This document shows positions 1 through 46,144 of a stretch of DNA of 46,144 bases, piece after piece. Under the pieces are notes generated by a model. That model saw only the letters and a program-made list of their open reading frames with translations. It did no database searches and was not told where the DNA came from. Numbering within the stretch: the stretch's first letter is position 1; every line of letters starts with the position of its first letter. The translations under genes were made by a program, and so were the position numbers. The stretch is from positions 1 to 46,144 of the forward strand of contig NZ_AMYT01000018.1 of the NCBI RefSeq assembly GCF_000313915.1. Direction: 5' to 3'. This DNA comes from Catellicoccus marimammalium M35/04/3 (GTDB lineage Bacteria > Bacillota > Bacilli > Lactobacillales > Catellicoccaceae).

Positions 1-94
1 TGCTCTTTGCCCTTGTCATCTCTCCTTTTCCCTCATGTTCTCAAGAAAGTGTGGGTTACAGGAACTCATAAATAGATTTCTAAGGAGAATTTAT
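1..94 (+). promoter_or_regulatory. Junction copy of leading-region hairpin repeat (right half)
   Basis: This is the right half of a hairpin repeat whose left half ends the window, read across the circular junction. TTGTCA lies at 13-18, a 17-nt spacer follows, then TGTTCT at 36-41. The same boxes and spacing occur at 44933-44961 and 1054-1082. CTCATGTT at 32-39 pairs with AACATGAG at 46113-46120, and CCCTTG pairs with CAAGGG at 46133-46138. A small GGGTT/AACTC hairpin follows, then the AGGAG site of the next gene. I infer a promoter that could be active when folded as single-stranded DNA. Confidence 0.6.
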
Positions 95-292
95 ATGGAA
101 GTTGGAAAAACTTATAAGGTTATTAACCCTTGTCAGATTGATGGAATTAACTTCAATGAAGGAGATATTTTAAAAGTAATATCTAAAAATAATATGAAAA
201 TAGAAGTCGAAAATATGGAGACAAAGGAAAAGAAATTTACTTATGGTATGTTTTTAGAAATTGCTTGTGAGGAGGTATCATCATGGGATTAG
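95..292 (+). CDS. Small hypothetical leading-region protein (65 aa)
   Basis: I do not recognise this 65-residue protein. It is rich in Lys and Glu and begins MEVGKTYKVINP, with alternating short hydrophobic and charged stretches suggesting a small beta-rich (SH3/OB-like) fold; that is only an impression. The start at 95 is chosen because TAAGGAG stands 8 bases upstream. The longer in-frame ORF from base 35 merely translates the upstream repeat, and the same MFSRKC peptide precedes other genes in this plasmid. It follows a hairpin-repeat promoter candidate and overlaps the next gene by 10 bases, so the two form a bicistron. A role in establishment in the recipient or in anti-defence is inferred only from position. 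Confidence 0.65.
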   Translation: MEVGKTYKVINPCQIDGINFNEGDILKVISKNNMKIEVENMETKEKKFTYGMFLEIACEEVSSWD

Positions 293-687
293 ATATGGGT
301 TTGATTGGAACATCAAAAAAAGACATTAAAAAAGAAGAAACATTGATTTATTGGCGAAAATCAAATGCTATTCATCGTTGGTTTTCTGAATATATTATTG
401 ATAAATATAACTTAGAAACTGATGAAATAGAAAACTGTAAAGAATATCCGATTGATAAAGAAGCACTAACTATTCTATTGGCTAATTGTAAGTTAGTGTT
501 AGATGACCATAACTTAGCAGAAACTATTTTACCTACTCAAGATGGCTTTTTCTTTGGAACAACGGAATATGATGAATATTATTTTGAAGATATAAGATAT
601 ACTGCTAGCTATTTAGATACCATTTTAAAAGTTCTATCTTTAACAGAGTCTGATGATATAGAGCTATCTTATGTAGCTTGGTGGTAA
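283..687 (+). CDS. Hypothetical protein of the MGLDM family (134 aa)
   Basis: The N terminus MGLDMGLIGT, the YWRKSNAIHRWF segment and the LLPTQ-like/GFFFG/YDEYYFED segments match, from memory, a widespread family of small phage and plasmid proteins of unknown function. AGGAGG lies directly upstream of the ATG. The gene overlaps the end of the preceding 65-aa gene and is followed by an intrinsic terminator at 699-724, so these two genes form one unit driven from the hairpin repeat across the junction. The protein is acidic overall with many aromatic residues. I cannot assign a biochemical function; the phage/plasmid distribution makes a role in host takeover or defence evasion possible. Confidence 0.75.
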   Translation: MGLDMGLIGTSKKDIKKEETLIYWRKSNAIHRWFSEYIIDKYNLETDEIENCKEYPIDKEALTILLANCKLVLDDHNLAETILPTQDGFFFGTTEYDEYYFEDIRYTASYLDTILKVLSLTESDDIELSYVAWW

Positions 688-748: not shown

Positions 749-1142
749 CTTATCGGAGCGAGCGACCCGCCCCCTCGCAAAACGTACATTGTACGTTTTA
801 ATTCCGATAAGGAAAAATGGGAAAATACTCCCTTTAGTCGCATTTTCTCCACCATTTTCTAAAGTGAGATAAAGAATTATAAGGTATAATAAATAAAAAA
901 TAATAACAGGAAAAAAGATGGCTAAAGCCACTTTTTGATTAAAAGAAGCTCCTTGCAGTCGCATGAAAGAAATCATTGCAGGACAATGATTCCTTATTTT
1001 GATTCTTTTAACATGAGTTCAGAGTCTTGCAAGGGACGTTTCACTCTTCGCCCTTGTCAATCCTCTTTTTCTCTCATGTTCTCAAGAAAATGTGAGGCAC
1101 GTAAGCAACACAAAGAATTTTTAATCAATAAGGAGAAAAATT
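749..1142 (+). promoter_or_regulatory. Leading-region hairpin repeat, copy upstream of the 216-aa gene
   Basis: This gene-free stretch is packed with inverted repeats. CTTATCGGA (749-757) pairs with TCCGATAAG (803-811). Inside are a GCGAG/CTCGC hairpin with a C-rich loop and a perfect AAAACGTACA palindrome (779-799). TGGC/GCCA followed by T5 lies at 918-935, and AATCATTG/CAATGATT near 972-992. AACATGAG (1010-1017) pairs with CTCATGTT (1072-1079), with nested CAAGGG/CCCTTG. TTGTCA at 1054-1059 and TGTTCT at 1077-1082 are 17 bases apart, as in two other copies. I infer a promoter usable from single-stranded template. Confidence 0.6.
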
Positions 1143-1793
1143 ATGTTTAATGAAAATAGTGGATACGTAGGATCAAGTCGTAGTGTAAGAAGTGCAGAAG
1201 CAATTGAAGAGTTTGAAATGCCTTTATCAATGATTGATAAAGCTACTATTCATGATTTTATTGATGAATTTGAAGAAGATGAAGATTATAAAGGATTAGA
1301 TCAATTAAGAGATTTATCTGTAACTCTTTGGAAATATGCTTGTAAACGAGCAGGAAATACAAGTTGGCACCACACAGGAAAATACTTTAATAGAACAAAC
1401 CATTATTCATTACCATATACAGCAGAATGGTTGTTAGATTATGGGGTAGATCGTTTGAAAGAAGATTACAAAGAAGATAAAGAAGAAGAGCGAAAAGAGA
1501 AAGCTAAGGAATTAGAAAATATGGAATTAGCAGTTGCTCAAATTCAAGTGTGGGGTGGTAGTAGAAGACACCCAAGATTATTAAAAATAGAAACTGTAAT
1601 GGGTGTAGTCAAAGGGGATTGGCTATATGCAGTTAGTGAATCAGAACAGTCTAAATATAAGATTTATGCAAATAAAGTAGAAAATATTAGTTATTTCAAA
1701 ATGGACGAATATTATTCTAAATTAATCAAACGTTTTCCAGAATTTAAAGCGATGAAACGTCAAATTAATCAATGTGTAAAACGTTTAAAATAA
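1143..1793 (+). CDS. Hypothetical leading-region protein (216 aa)
   Basis: The N-terminal GYVGSSRSVRSAEAIEEFEMP pattern resembles a family of Firmicute plasmid proteins (GYxGxSxSxxAxxAYExGExP) that I know only as hypothetical. Residues 1-70 are acidic. The middle holds a long charged helix (EDKEEERKEKAKELE), and the C terminus is basic. AAGGAG stands 8 bases before the ATG. The gene is alone between its hairpin-repeat promoter candidate and a terminator at 1797-1828. Its plus orientation, opposite to all transfer genes, and its shared upstream element tie it to the genes at 95, 283, 45024 and 45304. Function is unknown. Confidence 0.75.
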   Translation: MFNENSGYVGSSRSVRSAEAIEEFEMPLSMIDKATIHDFIDEFEEDEDYKGLDQLRDLSVTLWKYACKRAGNTSWHHTGKYFNRTNHYSLPYTAEWLLDYGVDRLKEDYKEDKEEERKEKAKELENMELAVAQIQVWGGSRRHPRLLKIETVMGVVKGDWLYAVSESEQSKYKIYANKVENISYFKMDEYYSKLIKRFPEFKAMKRQINQCVKRLK

Positions 1794-2004: not shown

Positions 2005-2115
2005 TAATGTAATTTATTTTCCAAAAAATAAATATGGATTTACATAATAATTTCAAATATGATAAAAGTGAGTATATAGTTATCTAATTAAAAATAAAAG
2101 ATGGTGAGAGGATTT

Positions 2116-3741
2116 ATGAAATTAATTAATTTATTACGAAAAATATTTTATAAAGATGATTTAACTGAAAAAGAGAGTACATGTATAAATGAATTTGATA
2201 TAAGAAAAGAAAATGAAGAAAATGATGATACCAATTTTATTTGCAAAAAGAAAAATAATGAAGTTAATATATACGGTGTTTCTTTAGATAAAGATGTTTA
2301 TGATCTGTTACGCAAAAAATATATCGCATTTGATGTAGAAACTACTGGTTTAAATGAATCTGTTGATAGAATTATCGAAATAGGAGCGATTATTTATGAA
2401 AATGGTATCCCTACAAAAAGATATGAAACACTTGTAAATGCAAAAGTAGAGGTTCCACAATCTGCAACTAACATTAATCATATAACTAATGAAATGTTAC
2501 AAAATGCACCTCAAGAAAAAGAATGTTACGAAAATTTAGTAGAGTTTTTAGGTGATGCATTGAACGGAGAAACTATAATATGTGCTCATAATGCTAAATT
2601 TGATATGAAATTTTTATCTGCAACTTTAAAAAGATTAGGTTATGATGCCAATATATCCTATATTGATACACTTGCTTTATCTAGAATATATGTAAAGGGA
2701 TTAATTAATTATAAGCAAAATACAGTGGCAGAACATTTTAATTTATGTAATAAAAATTTACATAGAGCAGGAAGTGATGCAGAAATTTGCGGAAATATTC
2801 TTTGGAATCTATTAGATATTATTAATATAGAATATGAAAAAAGAAGACCTACGTCTGATGAATTAGAAGTTTGTGCCGTAATTCAAAATATTATATCAAA
2901 AAAAAATAATGCAGAAGAATCATTGGCATTTTATAAATTGAGTGGTAATTATGTGGAAGTATCTTTTTTAAGAAATAATTTACGATATGGTATGTTTAAA
3001 TTTAAATTTGCTAAAAAGGGTAAGTATATTATTGTTTCGAAAAACATACAAAATATCGAAAATTTTGCTACAGAATTTTGTGTAGAAAGTGAAGGTGGAA
3101 AAGATTTTATACGCCTATTTTTCAATTCGCCACTTGAATTGGAGAAAATAGATCAGTATCTTTTTGATGTATATAAGAAAACTAAAAATACTGCTATCAA
3201 GAATCAAGAAATTATGAATAGATATAGATCTGATAGTAAATTAAGTGATGGGTATCGTAATATATTCAATAATTATTTATTAGAAAAAGATATTAAAGAA
3301 TTACTGAATATAGTTAGGAATAAACAATATCCAATATGCAATCCAATATGCAAAGTTATTCCAGAAATATCTGTTAATAGGGAAGATATAGAAATTCATC
3401 CTATACATAATAGAATTCCTATAGATCAGATTAAAACATTAGAACATTCTCCTAAGGCTATCAAACAACGATTTGTATTGTTTGAAAAAGGAGAAATTCT
3501 TAGAAAGGAAGGAAATATAAAAGAAGCTATTAGATTATATGATAAAGCTAGATATAATGGATATGATGCACCCGCTTTATATAAATCATATGCAATGGCG
3601 TATAGAAAATTAAAAGATTATGATAATGAAATAGCTATTCTCGATGAAGGAATTGCACAATATAAAAATCATAATACTTTAATAACTAGAAGACAAAGAG
3701 CAATTCAATTATTATTAAAACAGAGAAATAAAAATACATAG
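2116..3741 (+). CDS. DnaQ-like DEDDh 3'-5' exonuclease with C-terminal TPR-like repeats
   Basis: The exonuclease domain (about residues 68-235) shows FDVETTG (motif I Asp and Glu), HNAKFD (motif II) and a HRAGSDAE segment (motif III His and Asp), the DEDDh set of DNA polymerase III epsilon-like nucleases. A middle region I do not recognise follows. The last ~90 residues (LFEKGEILRKEGNIKEAIRLYDKA onward) look like two TPR helical pairs. It probably degrades or trims DNA or RNA 3' ends. The start at 2116 (MKLINLL) follows GAGAGG; an ATG at 2101 is also in frame. The gene is flanked by direct repeats and converges on topB, so it appears to be an inserted cargo gene. A defence role is possible but unproven. 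Confidence 0.8.
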   Translation: MKLINLLRKIFYKDDLTEKESTCINEFDIRKENEENDDTNFICKKKNNEVNIYGVSLDKDVYDLLRKKYIAFDVETTGLNESVDRIIEIGAIIYENGIPTKRYETLVNAKVEVPQSATNINHITNEMLQNAPQEKECYENLVEFLGDALNGETIICAHNAKFDMKFLSATLKRLGYDANISYIDTLALSRIYVKGLINYKQNTVAEHFNLCNKNLHRAGSDAEICGNILWNLLDIINIEYEKRRPTSDELEVCAVIQNIISKKNNAEESLAFYKLSGNYVEVSFLRNNLRYGMFKFKFAKKGKYIIVSKNIQNIENFATEFCVESEGGKDFIRLFFNSPLELEKIDQYLFDVYKKTKNTAIKNQEIMNRYRSDSKLSDGYRNIFNNYLLEKDIKELLNIVRNKQYPICNPICKVIPEISVNREDIEIHPIHNRIPIDQIKTLEHSPKAIKQRFVLFEKGEILRKEGNIKEAIRLYDKARYNGYDAPALYKSYAMAYRKLKDYDNEIAILDEGIAQYKNHNTLITRRQRAIQLLLKQRNKNT

Positions 3742-3743
3742 AT

Positions 3744-3813
3744 AATCAAAAGGAGAGCAGGTCATATAAGACTTGCTCTCTTCTTTTATATTATTTATTT
3801 TCAAATTCCATTT
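3744..3813. repeat. Right direct repeat and bidirectional terminator between exonuclease and topB
   Basis: GAGAGCA/TGCTCTC hairpin followed by a T-rich tract, sitting between convergent genes. The sequence duplicates 1947-2004 and runs into the topB 3' end. Confidence 0.75.
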
Positions 3814-11252: not shown

Positions 11253-12629
11253 CTATAAATCTAAACCATATTCTCTCGCTTTTTGAATGCGTTGAATTTC
11301 TTGGTTGGTTTGTTCAAATTCTTGTTCTGCTTTCCATTGTTTCACTTCATTACTCATCAATCGCTGCATTTTTTTGAATTGCAAAAACATAGAATTGGTA
11401 TGATATTGAATTTCATTTTTCGTTTGATCTCGTGGTTGATAGTGATAATCTTTCGTTTTTATTTTAGCATTAGAAGGTTTTTCTTTCTTCATTTCTTCTA
11501 AAATACTGTTAGATAATCGATAATAAATTCCATCTTTTCCATATAATTTATTTTCATAATAAGAATTTTTATTCTCATTCAACTTACCATAAACTTGTGC
11601 TTTAAAATCATTTTCTTCTTTTGCGATAGACTTGTATAAAGGAAAGTCTTCATTCTTTTCCATCAACAAATCAATAAATTGATACATCTCTTTTTTTGCT
11701 GAATCAGATAAATGATGAGTGTTCCAATTCTTTTTTTCTTCTGGTAAAGTTGCTTTTACTCGCAAAAATTGGTGCTTAATTTCTCGATTACGTTTTATCT
11801 TTTTATGAAAATCTTGCTTTACATCTATTCGTAATGAATCACGTAGTTGACTCATTTCTTTGTATACGCTGGTACGATCATATAAAGCATTGGAAAAATT
11901 TCTCTTCATACGTTCGATAGTTTTAGGCTTCCTTTTTCCTCTTTGTTTACCATCATTCATGATTTTTCTTGATGAAAGTTTAGGTTCAATCGTTGCTAAA
12001 TGAATATGAAAATGGTCAGTATTGTAATGAATTGCTCCTGTAAAAATAGTTTCTGGATTTAATTTTTCATCTTGAATCATTTCACGAATCATTACACGAC
12101 TCGCTTCAATTAATGGTTCACGATTTAATTCTTTAGTGTAAGGATTGTAAACTCCTGCTTCAATTAATCCTTTAGTATCAAAGGAAACTACATCTGTAAA
12201 CATTACATTTCCATTCTCTTGAGCTTTGTTAAAATCATTTCTTAACTTAGCTACTTCTTCTTGCGTTAAGTCATCGCTGGTAAAATCAAAGAGTCCTGTA
12301 TTTTTGATTTTAGTTCGTCTAGGTTCCTCTCTTCTCATTGAATCTAACTTTTCTTTGAGCTTTGGTTTTTCTTCTGCAATAAACTCTAACTCTTTTAATT
12401 CTAATGGACTTAATTTATCTTTTTTCAATAATGCTTGTTCTCGATCCATGTAATTAACATAGGTTTTGAAACCTTCATTTCTAAACTTTTCTTCTTTTTC
12501 TTTTTTTAGTTTCTCTTCTTTTGAATCTTTACGGTTCATATATTTTAAAAATCCTGAAAAACTTTTACTACCATTTTTACCACTAACAAATTCTGTCATC
12601 AGTACCATGTAGGGACTTTCTAATTTCAT
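11253..12629 (-). CDS. MobP-type (MobP2/MobL-like) relaxase
   Basis: The metal-binding motif HYNTDHFHIHLA (His201, His206, His208, His210) is the three-histidine motif of MOB-P relaxases, and the spaced, charged N terminus is typical of the Firmicute MobP2/MobL group. Candidate catalytic tyrosines are Tyr30 (FLKYMNR) and Tyr60 (YVNYMDR). The 458-aa length fits. The enzyme would nick oriT and stay covalently on the 5' end of the transferred strand. It lies in a minus-strand operon with three small upstream genes and the SSB-tail gene. The C-terminal half is basic and coiled. The start has only a weakly spaced GGAG upstream. Confidence 0.88.
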   Translation of the reverse strand: MKLESPYMVLMTEFVSGKNGSKSFSGFLKYMNRKDSKEEKLKKEKEEKFRNEGFKTYVNYMDREQALLKKDKLSPLELKELEFIAEEKPKLKEKLDSMRREEPRRTKIKNTGLFDFTSDDLTQEEVAKLRNDFNKAQENGNVMFTDVVSFDTKGLIEAGVYNPYTKELNREPLIEASRVMIREMIQDEKLNPETIFTGAIHYNTDHFHIHLATIEPKLSSRKIMNDGKQRGKRKPKTIERMKRNFSNALYDRTSVYKEMSQLRDSLRIDVKQDFHKKIKRNREIKHQFLRVKATLPEEKKNWNTHHLSDSAKKEMYQFIDLLMEKNEDFPLYKSIAKEENDFKAQVYGKLNENKNSYYENKLYGKDGIYYRLSNSILEEMKKEKPSNAKIKTKDYHYQPRDQTKNEIQYHTNSMFLQFKKMQRLMSNEVKQWKAEQEFEQTNQEIQRIQKAREYGLDL

Positions 12630-13790: not shown

Positions 13791-13925
13791 TAGTTTGTGA
13801 AAAACTTTAGAGAGATTGGGGAAAGAGCATAAGGAGAACCCTATATAACTTTCGCTCATTTCCACTCGCTGAAAGTTATACAAAGGCTGTGCCTTTGGGG
13901 TTTCTCGCTCACTTTGTGAAAAATA
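13791..13925. other. Candidate oriT: nested inverted repeats
   Basis: GAGAACCC (13834-13841) is complementary to GGGTTTCTC (13898-13906) except for one bulge. Inside lie a perfect TATAACTTTC/GAAAGTTATA pair (13844-13853 and 13871-13880) and a perfect CAAAGGC-tgt-GCCTTTG hairpin (13881-13897). TTTGTGAAAAA occurs on both sides (13794 and 13913). The site stands upstream of the relaxosome operon and between the transfer and mobilisation blocks, as oriT usually does. The nic site is not identified. Confidence 0.6.
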
Positions 13926-13948
13926 TTTTCTATATAGATTTTTATTTT

Positions 13949-14167
13949 TTTGACTTATTTTAGCTTAAATATTTTTTTGACTTATTTTGAGTTAAAACTC
14001 TGAACACTTAGAGCCAAAAGGGTTTCAAAGTGCTTAGCTTAAAATAGCTTAACTGACTTATTTTAGCTTAACTCAAAATAAGTTAAGATTTTCGTTGACT
14101 TAAAATAGCTTAAGTGCATTGACTTAATTTAAGTTATGCGATTTTTACGTTGACTTATTTTAGCTTA
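13949..14167. repeat. Array of TTGACTTATTTTAGCTTA-like repeats
   Basis: About seven or eight copies, some inverted, of a ~17-bp unit (T)TGACTTA(T/A)TTTA(G/A)(C/G)TTA, at about 13950, 13979, 14030-14050, 14054-14087, 14095, 14119 and 14150. The last copy overlaps the stop codon of the 295-aa transfer gene. Likely operators or iteron-like binding sites for the XRE or RHH-like proteins encoded just downstream. An origin function is the alternative. Confidence 0.75.
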
Positions 14168-33119: not shown

Positions 33120-33197
33120 ATTTATCTCCTTACTATTTTCAAAAGTTTGATCTATCGCTTTAATTTTAACTCATGGCAATAGTAAGTTAGTTAATCC

Positions 33198-33222
33198 TTT
33201 TTGTATTTGAAATAGTACATCA
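33198..33222. repeat. Left arm of 25-bp inverted repeat
   Basis: TTTTTGTATTTGAAATAGTA plus CATCA; its exact reverse complement occupies 33471-33495. Confidence 0.85.
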
Positions 33223-33470: not shown

Positions 33471-33495
33471 TGATGTACTATTTCAAATACAAAAA
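33471..33495. repeat. Right arm of 25-bp inverted repeat
   Basis: TGATGTACTATTTCAAATAC plus AAAAA, the reverse complement of 33198-33222. The enclosed segment is 248 bp. Confidence 0.85.
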
Positions 33496-33703
33496 AGATC
33501 CATGCACCCGATTCATCAGTGGTTCGGCGTCCATTACGACCCCAAAACGGTGGAGTCATCTCTCCGAAATCTAACGAATTTTCTATCAAAACTGTCTCAA
33601 AATTCAAAAATAGGGTTTTGAGACGAAAATATAAAAAACAAAATAGTCTTAATATTTTCTCATTTTTATAGAAAACCACTTCGAATACTGATACAATATA
33701 CTT

Positions 33704-38031: not shown

Positions 38032-39366
38032 TTATCCTAAGAAAGAAATGGTGTCAATCATTTTTTTGTAATTACGATATTCATTGCCGCCATTGTAACT
38101 TATTTTAGAAAAATAATCCTTATCTCTATCCTGTATATTGCACAAGGAGGAAACATTGTCCTTTAATACTTCTATATTACTAGGATTCATAGGATCTGAA
38201 ATTATTGTATAAAAAAGGAGATAATCTTTTGTCTTTAAAATACATAAATATATAAAAATAAGGCTATTAACATCAGTTTTTAAGCGACTAAGACGTCTTT
38301 TTTTACCTTGCTCATCATACCTATAATAATTTATATCTTCCCAACGTATACTATCTAATTGTGAAGTAATAAAATTAATCTCTCTCAATGATACATTTGC
38401 ATTATTAAAAATTTTTGGTAATTCATGGATAAATAGATCTAGTATAGATAATTTACCATCTAACTTTGACGAATGATCAGGAATATCCTTTTTATATATA
38501 GATGTATATATATATTCTATATAATTTCTTAAATGTATTTTTGTTGGAATAGGGAGATTAAATGAATAATTAAATATTTTATCTAAATATGTTATTGAAT
38601 CAATATCTCCATAATAATGGGATATAATTTTTGATAATTCAAATTTATTTATGCCGAAAATACAATTTATATTTGGAGATATAAAAATATGTTTTGTAAT
38701 TTCTAATAGAGAAATAGCAAAATTAGGATTACATCTATCTAATTCATCCATAATAAAAAGTATTCGTTTCTTTTTTGTATAGCCTAAAATCTCATTCAAC
38801 GAATTTCCTATTAAGTCTATTTTTTCTTCTATAGACATTATATTTTCATACATAGATTGATCATTTTTTTTTGCATTTATATTTTGATAATTATCTAAAA
38901 TAGAATCAATTCCAAATTTTTCAAGTATTGTATTTGCTAAGACATAGCCTAAGGAAGATAATAACTTTGCTATTGTTTCTTTTACTTTATCTTTTAATAA
39001 TTCCATATCCTTTAATTGATTAATTAATAAATACAAAATGGTAAGAAGTGGATCATCATATTTATCATATGACCAAGAATCAAAATAAATTGCTATGTAA
39101 TCGTCCTTGAACTTTATTATTTCTTCATCTTCAGATGTTTTAGGAATATCGGTACGATTAGCCAAATATTCTAATTGTTTTAAAAATACAGTTTTACCAC
39201 TACCCCATCTTCCATCTAAGGATATTGAAAAATGTCTATCCTCTTTGTTTAATAAAGAAATAATAATGTTTAAATATTTATTTCTTTTAAATATATCTTC
39301 CTTATAAAATTTAACAATATCATCTTCCATATGATCTTTTATACGATCTTTTATACGGTCTTCCAT
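38032..39366 (-). CDS. KAP-family P-loop NTPase (444 aa)
   Basis: Walker A is LDGRWGSGKTVFLKQL (~51-66), then AIYFDSWSYDKYDDP (a KAP signature), and Walker B is ILFIMDELDRCNPNFAISLLE with the following FISPNINCIFGINKFEL. No obvious paired membrane helices are present, unlike many KAP proteins. KAP NTPases include PifA of the F plasmid, which excludes phage, and several proposed defence NTPases, so an anti-phage or exclusion role is plausible but unproven. AGAGGAGAG precedes the ATG. The first codons contain a short DNA repeat (RIKDRIKDH). It is monocistronic and convergent to the partition genes. Confidence 0.85.
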   Translation of the reverse strand: MEDRIKDRIKDHMEDDIVKFYKEDIFKRNKYLNIIISLLNKEDRHFSISLDGRWGSGKTVFLKQLEYLANRTDIPKTSEDEEIIKFKDDYIAIYFDSWSYDKYDDPLLTILYLLINQLKDMELLKDKVKETIAKLLSSLGYVLANTILEKFGIDSILDNYQNINAKKNDQSMYENIMSIEEKIDLIGNSLNEILGYTKKKRILFIMDELDRCNPNFAISLLEITKHIFISPNINCIFGINKFELSKIISHYYGDIDSITYLDKIFNYSFNLPIPTKIHLRNYIEYIYTSIYKKDIPDHSSKLDGKLSILDLFIHELPKIFNNANVSLREINFITSQLDSIRWEDINYYRYDEQGKKRRLSRLKTDVNSLIFIYLCILKTKDYLLFYTIISDPMNPSNIEVLKDNVSSLCNIQDRDKDYFSKISYNGGNEYRNYKKMIDTISFLG

Positions 39367-41757: not shown

Positions 41758-42951
41758 TTATTTCTCCTTATTATTCATTTGAAGTATATATCTGTTGTAG
41801 TATGATTTTAATTCTTCTATAGTTTGGTATCTTTGATCTAAATTTGTATTTGTTCCCTTACGTACAAAATTTACTACATTAGCATTGTTAGATTTTAAAA
41901 TACTTTCAATTTTTTCTCTGCCAGTTAATATAAAACCAAGTACTTGTACTATTGCATAAATGTCAAACCTTTCATCGAAATTATTAAAACCTATTTGTTT
42001 TAGATTAGTAATATCATTTAGGGAACCTTTTATATCAGTATTACTATTAGTTAAATTGCTTTCACTTTCCAATGCTTTTGCTAATCCAAAATCAGAAATT
42101 TTAATTACACAAAGGTCATTGTCATATTCTTTTACTAAAATATTTGTAAAACTAATATCTCTATGTAAATAACCTTTAGAATGTATGTAGGAAAATCCTT
42201 CTATTATTTGATTGCATAATTTTATTCTTTGTTGAAAAGTTAGTTTTTGAGTATGTGAGTTTATATAACCATAAAGAGTATTTTCTACATATTCCATTGT
42301 ATACTCATTGTTATTATTATTATATTTGTATACCTCTAAAATATATGGAGAGGATAATTTGTTCATGATATCAAATTCTTGTTTGAATCGGTTTAATTCT
42401 ATTTCATTAATATTTTTCTTAGCCCTTTTTATTGCAAAATTTTTATTATATTCTTTATCTTTATATTTGTACACTTTAGCATAAGAACCTTCGCCGATAA
42501 ACTTAAGTTCATATTGTTGAATTTGTTTTGATTTTATATTACCTTTTAGCTTGAAAATAGGAATTGTAATATATATATCAATCGTCTGAAAATCTTCTGG
42601 TATATTACTTCCACGAGTGTTTAAGAAATTTAAACAATATCTAATAGTTTCCTCGCATTCAATATTAAATTCATATTCTGTATTTAATAAGCTATTTTGT
42701 AATTTAAAAGTTAAGTTTATTATTTTTAATAAATCTCTACTATTTTGAGCGTTTAGGTAATGGTATGGTTGGAAAATACATTGATTTATTATATCAAAAA
42801 AAATATTGTAGTTTTCATGCAATGAAGAAAATATCTCTCTTAATTGTTGATTCTCTATAGAATTGTATAAATCAATGATTTCCGAATCATAAGATGGTTC
42901 TATTTGTCTATGTATTTGTGCAATATCATTTAAAATTTTATCATTATCCAT
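41758..42951 (-). CDS. Hanks-type Ser/Thr protein kinase without membrane anchor (397 aa)
   Basis: Residues ~145-390 carry the full kinase set: glycine loop GEGSYAKVYKY, VAIK-lysine in FAIKRAKK, catalytic loop HRDISFTNIL, and ISDFGLAKA, followed by a short activation segment without a clear APE and then DIYAIVQVLGFILTG. The first ~140 residues are helical and unrecognised. There is no transmembrane or PASTA part, unlike housekeeping PknB, so it is a soluble accessory kinase. Soluble kinases on mobile elements include anti-phage examples (Stk2-like), but the role here is open. It is followed directly by the RHH gene. Confidence 0.9.
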   Translation of the reverse strand: MDNDKILNDIAQIHRQIEPSYDSEIIDLYNSIENQQLREIFSSLHENYNIFFDIINQCIFQPYHYLNAQNSRDLLKIINLTFKLQNSLLNTEYEFNIECEETIRYCLNFLNTRGSNIPEDFQTIDIYITIPIFKLKGNIKSKQIQQYELKFIGEGSYAKVYKYKDKEYNKNFAIKRAKKNINEIELNRFKQEFDIMNKLSSPYILEVYKYNNNNNEYTMEYVENTLYGYINSHTQKLTFQQRIKLCNQIIEGFSYIHSKGYLHRDISFTNILVKEYDNDLCVIKISDFGLAKALESESNLTNSNTDIKGSLNDITNLKQIGFNNFDERFDIYAIVQVLGFILTGREKIESILKSNNANVVNFVRKGTNTNLDQRYQTIEELKSYYNRYILQMNNKEK

Positions 42952-43842: not shown

Positions 43843-44730
43843 TTAATACTTTTTCCAATCATCTTTTAGTAACTTATGGGCTAATACTCTTATAGTTGTC
43901 ATATCTTCTGATTTTAATTTATATTCTTCGTTCTTTGATAAGTAGTTATCGATATATGTTTGTTTATATTGAAAATCAAATAAAGTAGTTTTGTTATTAT
44001 TATTGTCTGCTTCTTTTTGATCCTCAGTATAATGTTTTGCAATTTTAATAAGTTCTTTATTTATTGTACAATCAATACCATTATCGTTGTAAGGATTAAT
44101 AAAGCTATTAAGTACAAATAAATCTTCAATTGTATAATAGGGTTTTTGCTCAAATTCTAAAAGTTTCTCCCTCCATGAAGATTCTGAATGCTTTTGTGCT
44201 TCACGATCTAACTCTGCTGAATATACTACTCCAATAAATGCAGTGATGAAAGTTAATGTTAATATAAAAGGCTCAACTAAATTTTTGTTGATAAAAATAG
44301 ACACCTTTGAAATGAAAATGCTTGTAATAGCAATCACGATAAAGCCAAGCACAATAATGATGAACACTATGATAATAATATGATTTATAGTAATAGATTC
44401 TTCTAGTATTGAATGTAAATTTTTAAAAAAATCTTTTTTAAAAATATTATATAATAATATGGATACCGGTATTGATACTATTATCATTACTATTATCATT
44501 ACTATAGATGATATCATGTTTGGAATTAAGTATAAATTTTGACATATAATAAACAACATATAGAGTACAGGTATTGATACTAATAATGATGAAATACAAG
44601 CACATAGGATATTATTTGTTTTCTTAGAAGAATTTGATTCATCGTCTATTTCATGCTCTGCTTTTTTGTAAAAAATTACTTTACTTTTACTTTCGTTCTT
44701 CTTACTTTTGTTCTTCTTACTTTTGTTCAT
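43843..44730 (-). CDS. Four-helix membrane protein of unknown function (295 aa)
   Basis: A Lys/Ser-rich N terminus (MNKSKKNKSKKNESKSK, encoded by short DNA repeats) is followed by about four membrane helices (~41-62, 68-93, 117-142, 155-172) and a soluble C-terminal region beginning LDREAQKHSESSWREKLLEFE. The HSESSWREKLLEFE segment recurs, from memory, in small membrane proteins of mobile elements without known role. AGAAGGA precedes the ATG. It lies between the resolvase/res region and the first hairpin repeat. A surface-exclusion or defence function is possible but unsupported. Confidence 0.75.
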   Translation of the reverse strand: MNKSKKNKSKKNESKSKVIFYKKAEHEIDDESNSSKKTNNILCACISSLLVSIPVLYMLFIICQNLYLIPNMISSIVMIIVMIIVSIPVSILLYNIFKKDFFKNLHSILEESITINHIIIIVFIIIVLGFIVIAITSIFISKVSIFINKNLVEPFILTLTFITAFIGVVYSAELDREAQKHSESSWREKLLEFEQKPYYTIEDLFVLNSFINPYNDNGIDCTINKELIKIAKHYTEDQKEADNNNNKTTLFDFQYKQTYIDNYLSKNEEYKLKSEDMTTIRVLAHKLLKDDWKKY

Positions 44731-44784
44731 TTTATTCCTTCTTCCATTATTTATTTAAAATAATTATATCATATATTATTTTTG

Positions 44785-45023
44785 TTATTTTCTTCGTTCC
44801 AACCGCCCCCACCACTCCGAAAATAAGCTCCAGCTGTGCTGTCGCATGAAGGAAACCATTGTTTCACAATGGTTTTTTTCTTTCTTTTAACATGAGTCAG
44901 TCGATCTGCAAGGGACGCTCCGCTCTTTGCCCTTGTCATCTCTCCTTTTCTCTCATGTTCTCAAGAAAGTGTGAGTTGCAGGAACTCATAAAAAGATTTT
45001 TCAAACAAAAAGGAGAGTTTATT
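44785..45023 (+). promoter_or_regulatory. Leading-region hairpin repeat, copy upstream of the 95-aa gene
   Basis: TTATTTTC (44785-44792) pairs with GAAAATAA (44819-44826) around a C-rich loop. AGCTCCAGCTGTGCTGTCGC follows. AACCATTG/CAATGGTT with a T-run lies near 44864-44880. AACATGAG (44889-44896) pairs with CTCATGTT (44952-44959), with nested CAAGGG/CCCTTG. TTGTCA (44933-44938) and TGTTCT (44956-44961) are 17 bases apart. It is the best-preserved copy. Confidence 0.65.
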
Positions 45024-45311
45024 ATGAATGCAAAATTAGTAACAGTGGAGTTTAATGAGGAAGCACAAGTGATGTTGTTCCGTATTGATGTAGCAGGCTT
45101 TGGATATAAAGAGTATTCTCTTTGGGTCAATTTACATACGTATATGGTAACAGGCGATGTTGTTGCTCATGGAGATTGGTATGATATTGAACAAGAAGAG
45201 TGTTTAGAAGTGTTAAAAGCAGGAGTACCAGAAGCTATTTATAAATGGATTACAGATGGTAAAAAACGTTTTCTTAATGGAGGAGTATTGGAGGTTATGG
45301 ATAATGAGTGA
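45024..45311 (+). CDS. Small acidic leading-region protein (95 aa)
   Basis: An unrecognised acidic protein (VTVEFNEEAQVMLFRIDVAGFGYKEYSLWV, later DWYDIEQEECLEVLKAG). AAGGAG stands 8 bases before the ATG at 45024; the longer ORF through the repeat (MFSRKC...) is rejected as in other copies. The stop overlaps the start of the next gene by 8 bases. Its hairpin-repeat promoter candidate, small size and acidity resemble those of anti-defence proteins of plasmid leading regions, but no homology is claimed. Confidence 0.7.
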   Translation: MNAKLVTVEFNEEAQVMLFRIDVAGFGYKEYSLWVNLHTYMVTGDVVAHGDWYDIEQEECLEVLKAGVPEAIYKWITDGKKRFLNGGVLEVMDNE

Positions 45312-45582
45312 GAAATTCCACGTATATTCTAGACATTATTTTGATAACTGTACTGCATATGTACAAATTACACGATATTCAAATTACTATGATAGAACGA
45401 TAAAGGATACTATTGAAACTAAATTAGATTGGGATACTATTGAAGATATGAGTGTCTATCCAATTTGGGTGGAAGAAGAAGGCTTAGAAAATCTTTTTGG
45501 AGAATGTGAAGAAGGGAAAGAGATTCTAGCAAGTATTCAAGGTTTAGATGAAGACGCTGAGCTGTATATGGAAATCTATTAA
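45304..45582 (+). CDS. Small, very acidic leading-region protein (92 aa)
   Basis: By hand count about 22 Asp/Glu against 7 Lys/Arg, spread over the chain (for example IWVEEEGLENLFGECEEGKE and LDEDAELYMEIY), which suggests a DNA-mimic surface such as that of ArdA-type antirestriction proteins; the ArdA sequence itself is not seen. GGAGG is 8 bases before the ATG at 45304, which is why the longer ORF from 45256 is rejected. It is coupled to the 95-aa gene and ends just before a terminator (45588-45611). Confidence 0.7.
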   Translation: MSEKFHVYSRHYFDNCTAYVQITRYSNYYDRTIKDTIETKLDWDTIEDMSVYPIWVEEEGLENLFGECEEGKEILASIQGLDEDAELYMEIY

Positions 45583-45587
45583 GTAGG

Positions 45588-45611
45588 AAGGTGGCATTTG
45601 CCACCTTTTTT
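45588..45611 (+). terminator. Intrinsic terminator after the 92-aa gene
   Basis: AAGGTGGCA/TGCCACCTT perfect stem followed by TTTT. Confidence 0.85.
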
Positions 45612-45612
45612 G

Positions 45613-45715
45613 TTACTTTCTCCGTTCCAACCGCCACCGCCACTACGAAAGTAAGCTCCAGCTGTGCTGTCGCAGGGAAGACATTGCTTTGCAATGCTTC
45701 CTTACTTTATATTCT
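45613..45715 (+). repeat. Truncated hairpin repeat without a gene
   Basis: TTACTTTC (45613-45620) pairs with GAAAGTAA (45647-45654). The loop, the AGCTCCAGCTGTGCTGTCGC block and a GGAAG-ATTGC/GCAAT-CTTCC hairpin match the copy at 44785, but the AACATGAG/TTGTCA part is missing. The following 45716-45930 has no convincing ORF. The unit ends with a perfect AAAAGAGGTGCA/TGCACCTCTTTT terminator at 45936-45960. Confidence 0.65.
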
Positions 45716-45935
45716 TAAGAAAGAATGGATTATAGGATCCTACAATGGAAAGTAGATCCTTATTAGGATATATTCCAAAATTAGACTTTTCATTTTAATA
45801 GATCCATGATACAATGAATATACAAAAATTCTTGTACTTTCTAGGTTTTCATATTAGTAAAAGTTAGAGAATTTGTTTTAGAAGTATTTGATTTTGAATA
45901 GGTCGATTAAGTACTTCAAAGAATTGATAGACGGA

Positions 45936-45962
45936 AAAAGAGGTGCAATGCACCTCTTTTTT
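45936..45962 (+). terminator. Intrinsic terminator ending the gene-free unit
   Basis: AAAAGAGGTGCA/TGCACCTCTTTT stem with T-run. No ORF precedes it, suggesting a decayed gene or a non-coding RNA between 45716 and 45935. Confidence 0.75.
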
Positions 45963-45973
45963 CTTTTGCACAC

Positions 45974-46144
45974 ATTGTTTTTTTGCGTAGGAGTGTCCCC
46001 ACCCCCACGCCCTCAAAAAACAATCGGAAAGAAAAAAGGTAGGGCGGAACCTGCTTCTAGTCGAGCAAGCTCTCCTTTCAGTCCACCCTATTTTTTCTTC
46101 CTTTTTCTTTCTAACATGAGTCAGTCGATCTGCAAGGGACGCTC
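45974..46144 (+). promoter_or_regulatory. Junction copy of leading-region hairpin repeat (left half)
   Basis: ATTGTTTTTT (45974-45983) pairs perfectly with AAAAAACAAT (46015-46024) around a C-rich loop. AAAAAAGGTAGGGCGGA (46032-46048) pairs with TCCACCCTATTTTTT (46082-46096) through G-T pairs. AACATGAG (46113-46120) and CAAGGG (46133-46138) pair with bases 32-39 and 10-15 at the window start. Together with 1-94 this forms a complete element upstream of the genes at 95 and 283. Confidence 0.6.

Follow-up and report, generated by a model that had tools for sequence, protein, structure and literature searches.

Three operons of small genes on the + strand of the window (the whole 46,144-nt stretch analyzed here, contig NZ_AMYT01000018.1 of Catellicoccus marimammalium M35/04/3) each have a GC-rich hairpin leader in front of them. 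A sequence-only reading of the locus had proposed, from differences between leader copies that keep the pairing, that selection acts on folding, and had left the choice between DNA and RNA undecided. Which molecule folds, on which strand, and to what end is the question that this locus raises.

Plasmid context and leader anatomy

The window is one contig of a 1.28-Mb Lactobacillales genome. Judged by its genes, it is a conjugative plasmid with a MobP2 relaxase and a pLS20-type T4SS; a VirD4-like coupling protein, a VirB4-like ATPase, and a pLS20_p028-family membrane protein are encoded as well. A repeat unit spans the window ends (46102-46144 joins 1-79), so the molecule is either circular or cut within a unit, and it is probably a complete circular plasmid. 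The - strand carries the transfer genes, and a + strand block of mostly small genes lies at 44.8-46.1 and 0-3.7 kb.

In each leader, module A or a related C-rich-loop stem is followed by module C, module B, and the RBS (Table 1). Module A consists of a nearly invariant C-rich loop on a variable stem. Module C combines a GCTCC...GTCGCA motif with a hairpin, which is terminator-like in unit 1. Module B is a CAAGGG/CCCTTG stem inside the outer stem AACATGAG/CTCATGTT; there is one per operon, adjoining the RBS, at 79, 86, and 88 nt from inner stem to start codon in the three units. The GC content of the leaders (0.42, 0.46, 0.44, and 0.36) exceeds that of the plasmid (0.306). The leader stretches contain multiple inverted repeats, and their predicted folds are more stable than those of shuffled sequences (z -2.5 to -5.2). 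On either strand, the unit at 44779-44990 was more stable than every one of 200 dinucleotide shuffles (z -3.9 and -3.8). A search of the rest of the host genome returned no further leaders at E<=0.001. The third gene has relatives on Enterococcus and Listeria plasmids that are 41-47% identical.

Table 1. Positions of leader modules, downstream genes, and transfer elements in the window
Feature	Position	Strand	Support
Module A hairpin, unit 1: 8-bp stem, C-rich loop (- strand: G-rich GGTGGGGGCGGTTGG)	44785..44826	-	CM R1 E 4e-13
Module C, unit 1: GCTCC...GTCGCA, hairpin AACCATTG/CAATGGTT, then T run (terminator-like on +)	44827..44880	+	
Module B, unit 1: outer stem AACATGAG/CTCATGTT around CAAGGG (44909)...CCCTTG (44935)	44889..44959	-	
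Putative establishment operon 1: small overlapping genes 45024-45311 and 45304-45582; start codon 88 nt past module B inner stem	45024..45582	+	
Module A hairpin, second copy (coordinates of the sequence-only reading)	45613..45654	-	CM R1 E 8e-14
Module C, second copy: GCTCC...GTCGCA, hairpin GGAAG-A-CATTG/CAATG-CTTCC	45653..45708	+	
C-rich-loop hairpin, unit 2, unrelated arms	45972..46024	-	
Long hairpin, unit 2, loop contains AGTCG	46036..46098	+	
Module B, unit 2, 5' part; the rest is at 1-39, beyond the end-to-start junction	46113..46144	-	
Module B, unit 2, 3' part	1..39	-	
Putative establishment operon 2: genes 95-292 and 283-687; start codon 79 nt past module B inner stem	95..687	+	
C-rich-loop hairpin, unit 3, arms around TTATCGG/CCGATAA, inner hairpin inside	749..811	-	
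Module C, unit 3: AGCTCCTTGCAGTCGCA and hairpin AATCATTG/CAATGATT	947..991	+	
Module B, unit 3: outer stem AACATGAG/CTCATGTT, inner CAAGGG (1030)...CCCTTG (1056)	1010..1080	-	
Putative establishment gene 3, 216 aa; start codon 86 nt past module B inner stem	1143..1793	+	
MobP2 family relaxase	11253..12629	-	NF041498, E 7e-76
oriT core CCTTATGCTCTTTCC in relaxase-sense orientation, with inverted repeat TATAACTTTC...GAAAGTTATA 5' of it	13820..13834	-	core/nic placement per PMC4652767

Conservation and covariation of the hairpins

Both double changes cited in the sequence-only reading were recovered. The outer stem reads TTATTTTC (44785)/GAAAATAA (44819) in one copy and TTACTTTC (45613)/GAAAGTAA (45647) in the other, and the next hairpin reads AACCATTG (44854)/CAATGGTT (44867) and AATCATTG (971)/CAATGATT (984). 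In each case either arm carries a single difference between the copies, at positions that pair with each other, and the pair is Watson-Crick both ways. A chance estimate by hand gives 1/8 x 1/3 per hairpin, or about 0.002 jointly. A third copy of the second hairpin, which that reading did not cite, lies at about 45675-45702 (GGAAG-A-CATTG/CAATG-CTTCC); its arms are different and pair with one bulged base. The stems around C-rich loops reported at 749-811 and 45974-46024 are likewise present. Two double changes between window copies are suggestive but thin evidence on their own, and homologues were therefore sought.

A 47-nt module A query had matches in 155 Enterococcus and 8 Listeria plasmids. 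A 58-nt query including the loop brought these to 636 Enterococcus, 37 Listeria, and 6 Lactococcus plasmids, with most matches resting on the 22-nt loop. A covariance model placed module A in 21 of 395 Lactobacillales genomes from 10 genera, a count that includes the window's own genome. The invariant positions of the loop consist of CC pairs, which read as GG runs on the - strand, and a small number of other bases; the GG runs suggest that the loop may form a G-quadruplex. The same loop sits on stems that are unrelated in sequence but paired, many of them perfectly for 13-16 bp.

The sequence-only reading had proposed a statistical test of covariation in homologues. Run on 11 copies of module A, it gave a score of 1.21, compared with 0.28 +- 0.06 for shuffles and a maximum of 0.36 for slid partners; pairing holds in 98.9% of stem cells, and 8 of 8 stem pairs are changed on both sides, all with the loop register chosen per sequence, which biases these figures towards the structure. 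When flanks were shuffled and the register choice was redone, p<=0.05 was obtained in about 27 of about 41 copies. Stem pairing is not universal: some copies do not pair, among them at least one front copy, in Listeria pLIS51 (L010:5010), that has no stem. Stems are shorter in copies that precede operons, and copies with strong stems are often found after an operon or gene, as in pCF10, pLIS51, and E. faecium. Counts of G-T versus A-C in the stems (2 vs 7) lean to the - strand, in copies that are not independent and so offer no proof.

The module B stem, as ACAAGGG/CCCTTGT, precedes operons in pCF10, Efsorialis-p2, LR962243, E. faecium, a Sporosarcina MAG, and Listeria, and five times in pLS20. 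In the window, its core contains one + strand G-T pair. The extension stem, made up of the five pairs beyond the core, shows covariation as well (0.33 vs 0.13 +- 0.03). The window, pCF10, pLIS51, E. faecium pTT39_p2, and the Sporosarcina MAG share one order, in which module A is followed after 120-225 nt by module B and after a further ~70-120 nt (197 in pCF10) by the start codon. pLS20 keeps this order with a C-rich hairpin replacing the A motif. The genes downstream include an AcrIIA9-family gene and PcfJ in pCF10 and ardC in pLS20 (also PMC8708921). Taken with the module A results, the comparison strongly supports the proposal that folding is under selection in both modules of the leaders, as the sequence-only reading had held.

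Several searches define the range of these elements. Neither the A-loop nor the module B pattern occurred in viral contigs, and in 295 Lactobacillales genomes the module B pattern returned the window's own copies only. A distant-mode DNA search of plasmids with the 1.7-kb region had no matches. Rfam gave 0 hits at the gathering score for the whole window, and only weak, chance-level hits for 44700-46144 at E<=1. A literature search on the A-loop sequence returned unrelated papers only. The exact A-loop pattern also occurs, without a clear stem, in Bacteroidales/Bacteroidetes MAGs and a Clostridiales MAG (L061, L065, L072, L075). Rhizobial plasmids carry a near-identical inner B hairpin, CAAGGGACGCTNCGCTCTTYGCCCTTG, in the mobC-parA interval, and Nocardia pYS1 carries one next to rep (L007:3001-3032, L009:3001-3030, L008:561-598); the opposite strand there holds GCGNAGC-type mini-hairpins.

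Comparison with EGeRS1

The closest published element is EGeRS1, which precedes the RBS of every establishment operon in pLS20-family plasmids (PMC8708921); in our literature search it was treated in substance in that 2021 paper only, where its mechanism was left open. EGeRS1 has no sigma-A promoter and blocks read-through; EGeRS1-B does so in its native orientation only, and reverse-oriented EGeRS1 shows no promoter activity (PMC8708921).

The window leaders resemble EGeRS1 in being carried by a MobP2/pLS20-type plasmid in multiple copies, each just 5' of the RBS of a small-gene operon. They also share a raised GC content (0.36-0.46 against 0.31 for the plasmid), many inverted repeats, and a very stable predicted fold. 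Promoter-like matches in the window are at shuffle level, with no sigma-A promoter recognizable from sequence, and the leaders may share this feature with EGeRS1 too. The pLS20 elements and the window have in common GCTCC...GTCGCA, a C-rich hairpin, a terminator-like hairpin, the CAAGGG/CCCTTG stem, and a similar distance to the start codon. Terminator-like hairpins in the window are a possible counterpart of the read-through block of EGeRS1. Nucleotide identity above 60%, one criterion for EGeRS1, was not found, local matches to pLS20 being short and at chance level. In addition, the window leaders are shorter and have the invariant A loop common to Enterococcus and Listeria plasmids. Because the architecture is shared without an overall alignment, we term them EGeRS1-like rather than EGeRS1.

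Strand preference of the fold

When folded as DNA, the antisense strand was more stable than the sense strand in 13 of 14 module B hairpins, which are related in families and whose boundaries were set by hand. The same proportion favored the antisense strand after subtraction of the dinucleotide-shuffle difference to correct for composition. The bias fell below z = -2 in L024, L021, L037, pLS20A, and L043. In the window's own B copies it is near zero (z -0.15 to -0.34), so the evidence on polarity comes from the relatives. The pCF10 B hairpin alone shows the opposite bias (+1.6); a wider pCF10 stretch gives -2.0. Among 300-nt stretches, three pLS20 EGeRS1 copies have z of about -4.5 to -5.7; the stretch labeled pLS20_C, most of which falls outside the element, was not counted. 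As a rough control taken without exact Frpo coordinates, parts of the leading region of F showed no fold asymmetry. The asymmetry would thus mark the selected strand here rather than single-strand promoters in general.

These data bear on whether the leader works within the mRNA as an attenuator, an antiterminator, or a translation switch. Control of this kind would account for the terminator-like hairpin and T run of module C and for the orientation dependence of the EGeRS1-B block (PMC8708921). However, an mRNA under selection should fold at least as well in the sense strand, and in the relatives the antisense strand folds better; we therefore consider RNA-level control unlikely. On the question between DNA and RNA, the fold asymmetry points to the antisense strand and against the mRNA. 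This asymmetry is new here, and by it selection probably acts on a molecule other than the mRNA.

The transferred strand

CCTTATGCTCTT occurs on the relaxase-sense strand of five MobP2 plasmids (the window, pLS20, and those of E. innesii, Virgibacillus, and Priestia), and in all five an inverted repeat of differing sequence lies 5' of it. CTTATGCTCTT has been named the oriT core for a relaxase group into which pWBG749 and pHTbeta fall; hairpin repeats lie 5' of that core, and nic was delineated within CCTTATGCTCTTACGG (PMC4652767). From the orientation of the core and this nic placement, we infer that the T-strand of the window is the - strand, which is the template of the leader genes. By that reading, the polarity is contrary to the one published for pLS20, where the nick was mapped in vitro to the opposite strand (PMC5313138) and single-strand promoters were rejected on strand-polarity grounds (PMC8708921). 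The fold asymmetry and the conserved oriT core reopen this question. Repeated AGCTTAAAATAAGTC-like units at 13937-14160 adjoin the oriT core and are possible sites for relaxosome accessory proteins.

Hairpins that act on single-stranded plasmid DNA are familiar from the sso of Gram-positive rolling-circle plasmids and ICEs. The window leaders would resemble these if they act on single-stranded DNA, and differ in being repeated per operon and in adjoining start codons. Frpo and ssi are single-strand promoters of F and ColIb-P9 (PMC11541004, PMC8708921). Like them, the window hairpins lie 5' of early genes and, if the T-strand assignment is right, on the template strand. Unlike Frpo and ssi, the window-type stems yielded no -35/-10 hexamers.

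The hairpins might also serve as priming sites only, recruiting primase or RNA polymerase on the T-strand for second-strand synthesis without driving genes. Their place on the likely T-strand, the promoter hexamers that were searched for and not found, and the inner hairpin beside mobC/parA and rep on rhizobial and Nocardia plasmids would all fit. Priming alone, however, requires neither one leader per operon nor a position near the RBS at a similar distance, and we regard this explanation as rather unlikely.

Promoter signals and proposed mechanism

No sigma-A -35/-10 signature emerged from 10 sequences downstream of module B, where -10 scores at the expected spacing were not above those of shuffles, and promoter-like matches within the leaders equaled the chance level. 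A pair of hexamers in the B stem that looked plausible by eye (TTGTCA-17-TGTTCT) failed the shuffle test. Since promoter hexamers were not detected, the promoter step is one that we infer, and the recognizer could be RNA polymerase, primase, or another protein.

We propose, with a probability of roughly 0.55, that the leaders are EGeRS1-like elements that act on incoming ssDNA, as Frpo does, and start RNA synthesis for the establishment operons. The relaxase-sense (-) strand would enter the recipient single-stranded and would be the template of the + strand leader genes. On this strand, module A, with its invariant G-rich loop, and module B, with its invariant CAAGGG/CCCTTG stem 70-100 nt 5' of the start codon, would fold into hairpins. 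With these hairpins folded, RNA synthesis could start ahead of the second strand, so that expression would be early and transient, and primers might be made too. Once the plasmid is double-stranded, the hairpins would vanish, and the terminator-like hairpin of module C would stop read-through. The downstream genes would, on this proposal, have a role in establishment. In its favor are the covariation in both modules, the shared module order, the kinds of genes downstream, the antisense fold bias in relatives, the oriT core orientation, and the single module B beside the RBS of each operon. Counting against it are the missing sigma-A signature, the in vitro nick position of pLS20 (PMC5313138), the near-zero strand bias and the + strand G-T pair of the window's own B copies, the opposite bias of the pCF10 B hairpin, and the symmetric folding of the F control.

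The invariant loop and the invariant CAAGGG stem suggest recognition. This could mean that the leaders are simply sites read by a plasmid or host protein, or that an antisense RNA from the - strand regulates the operon. Reverse-oriented EGeRS1 has no promoter activity (PMC8708921), which speaks against the latter, and taken together we judge these two options very unlikely. Protein recognition as such is compatible with the ssDNA-leader explanation rather than opposed to it.

More tentatively, and at somewhat less than even odds, the leaders may represent a Gram-positive class of single-strand-active establishment leaders. Its members, on Enterococcus, Listeria, Bacillus, and other plasmids, would be marked by the invariant G-rich loop and the CAAGGG/CCCTTG hairpins and would give early expression from the T-strand through a non-hexamer signal, with the published T-strand polarity of pLS20 reversed. 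Hundreds of enterococcal plasmids, pCF10 among them, carry these hairpins, so the way the leaders work would matter for how such plasmids turn on anti-defense genes at arrival.

Other features of the window

The stretch at 45787-45965 contains a promoter-like TTTTCA-17-TACAAT with TG and, at about 45938-45962, a hairpin with a T run; a transcript of ~140 nt without a gene is possible. Two copies of a terminator-like hairpin (1942-1990 and 3739-3787), 90% identical, flank a gene for a 546-aa DnaQ-like exonuclease/TPR protein (2101-3741). Upstream of the transfer genes, 29-nt inverted repeats that are 97% complementary lie 248 nt apart (33194-33222 and 33471-33499). A KAP-type NTPase (38032-39366) and a protein kinase (41758-42951) match PADLOC models for candidate defense systems (PDC-S20; PD-T4-6/mads_6).
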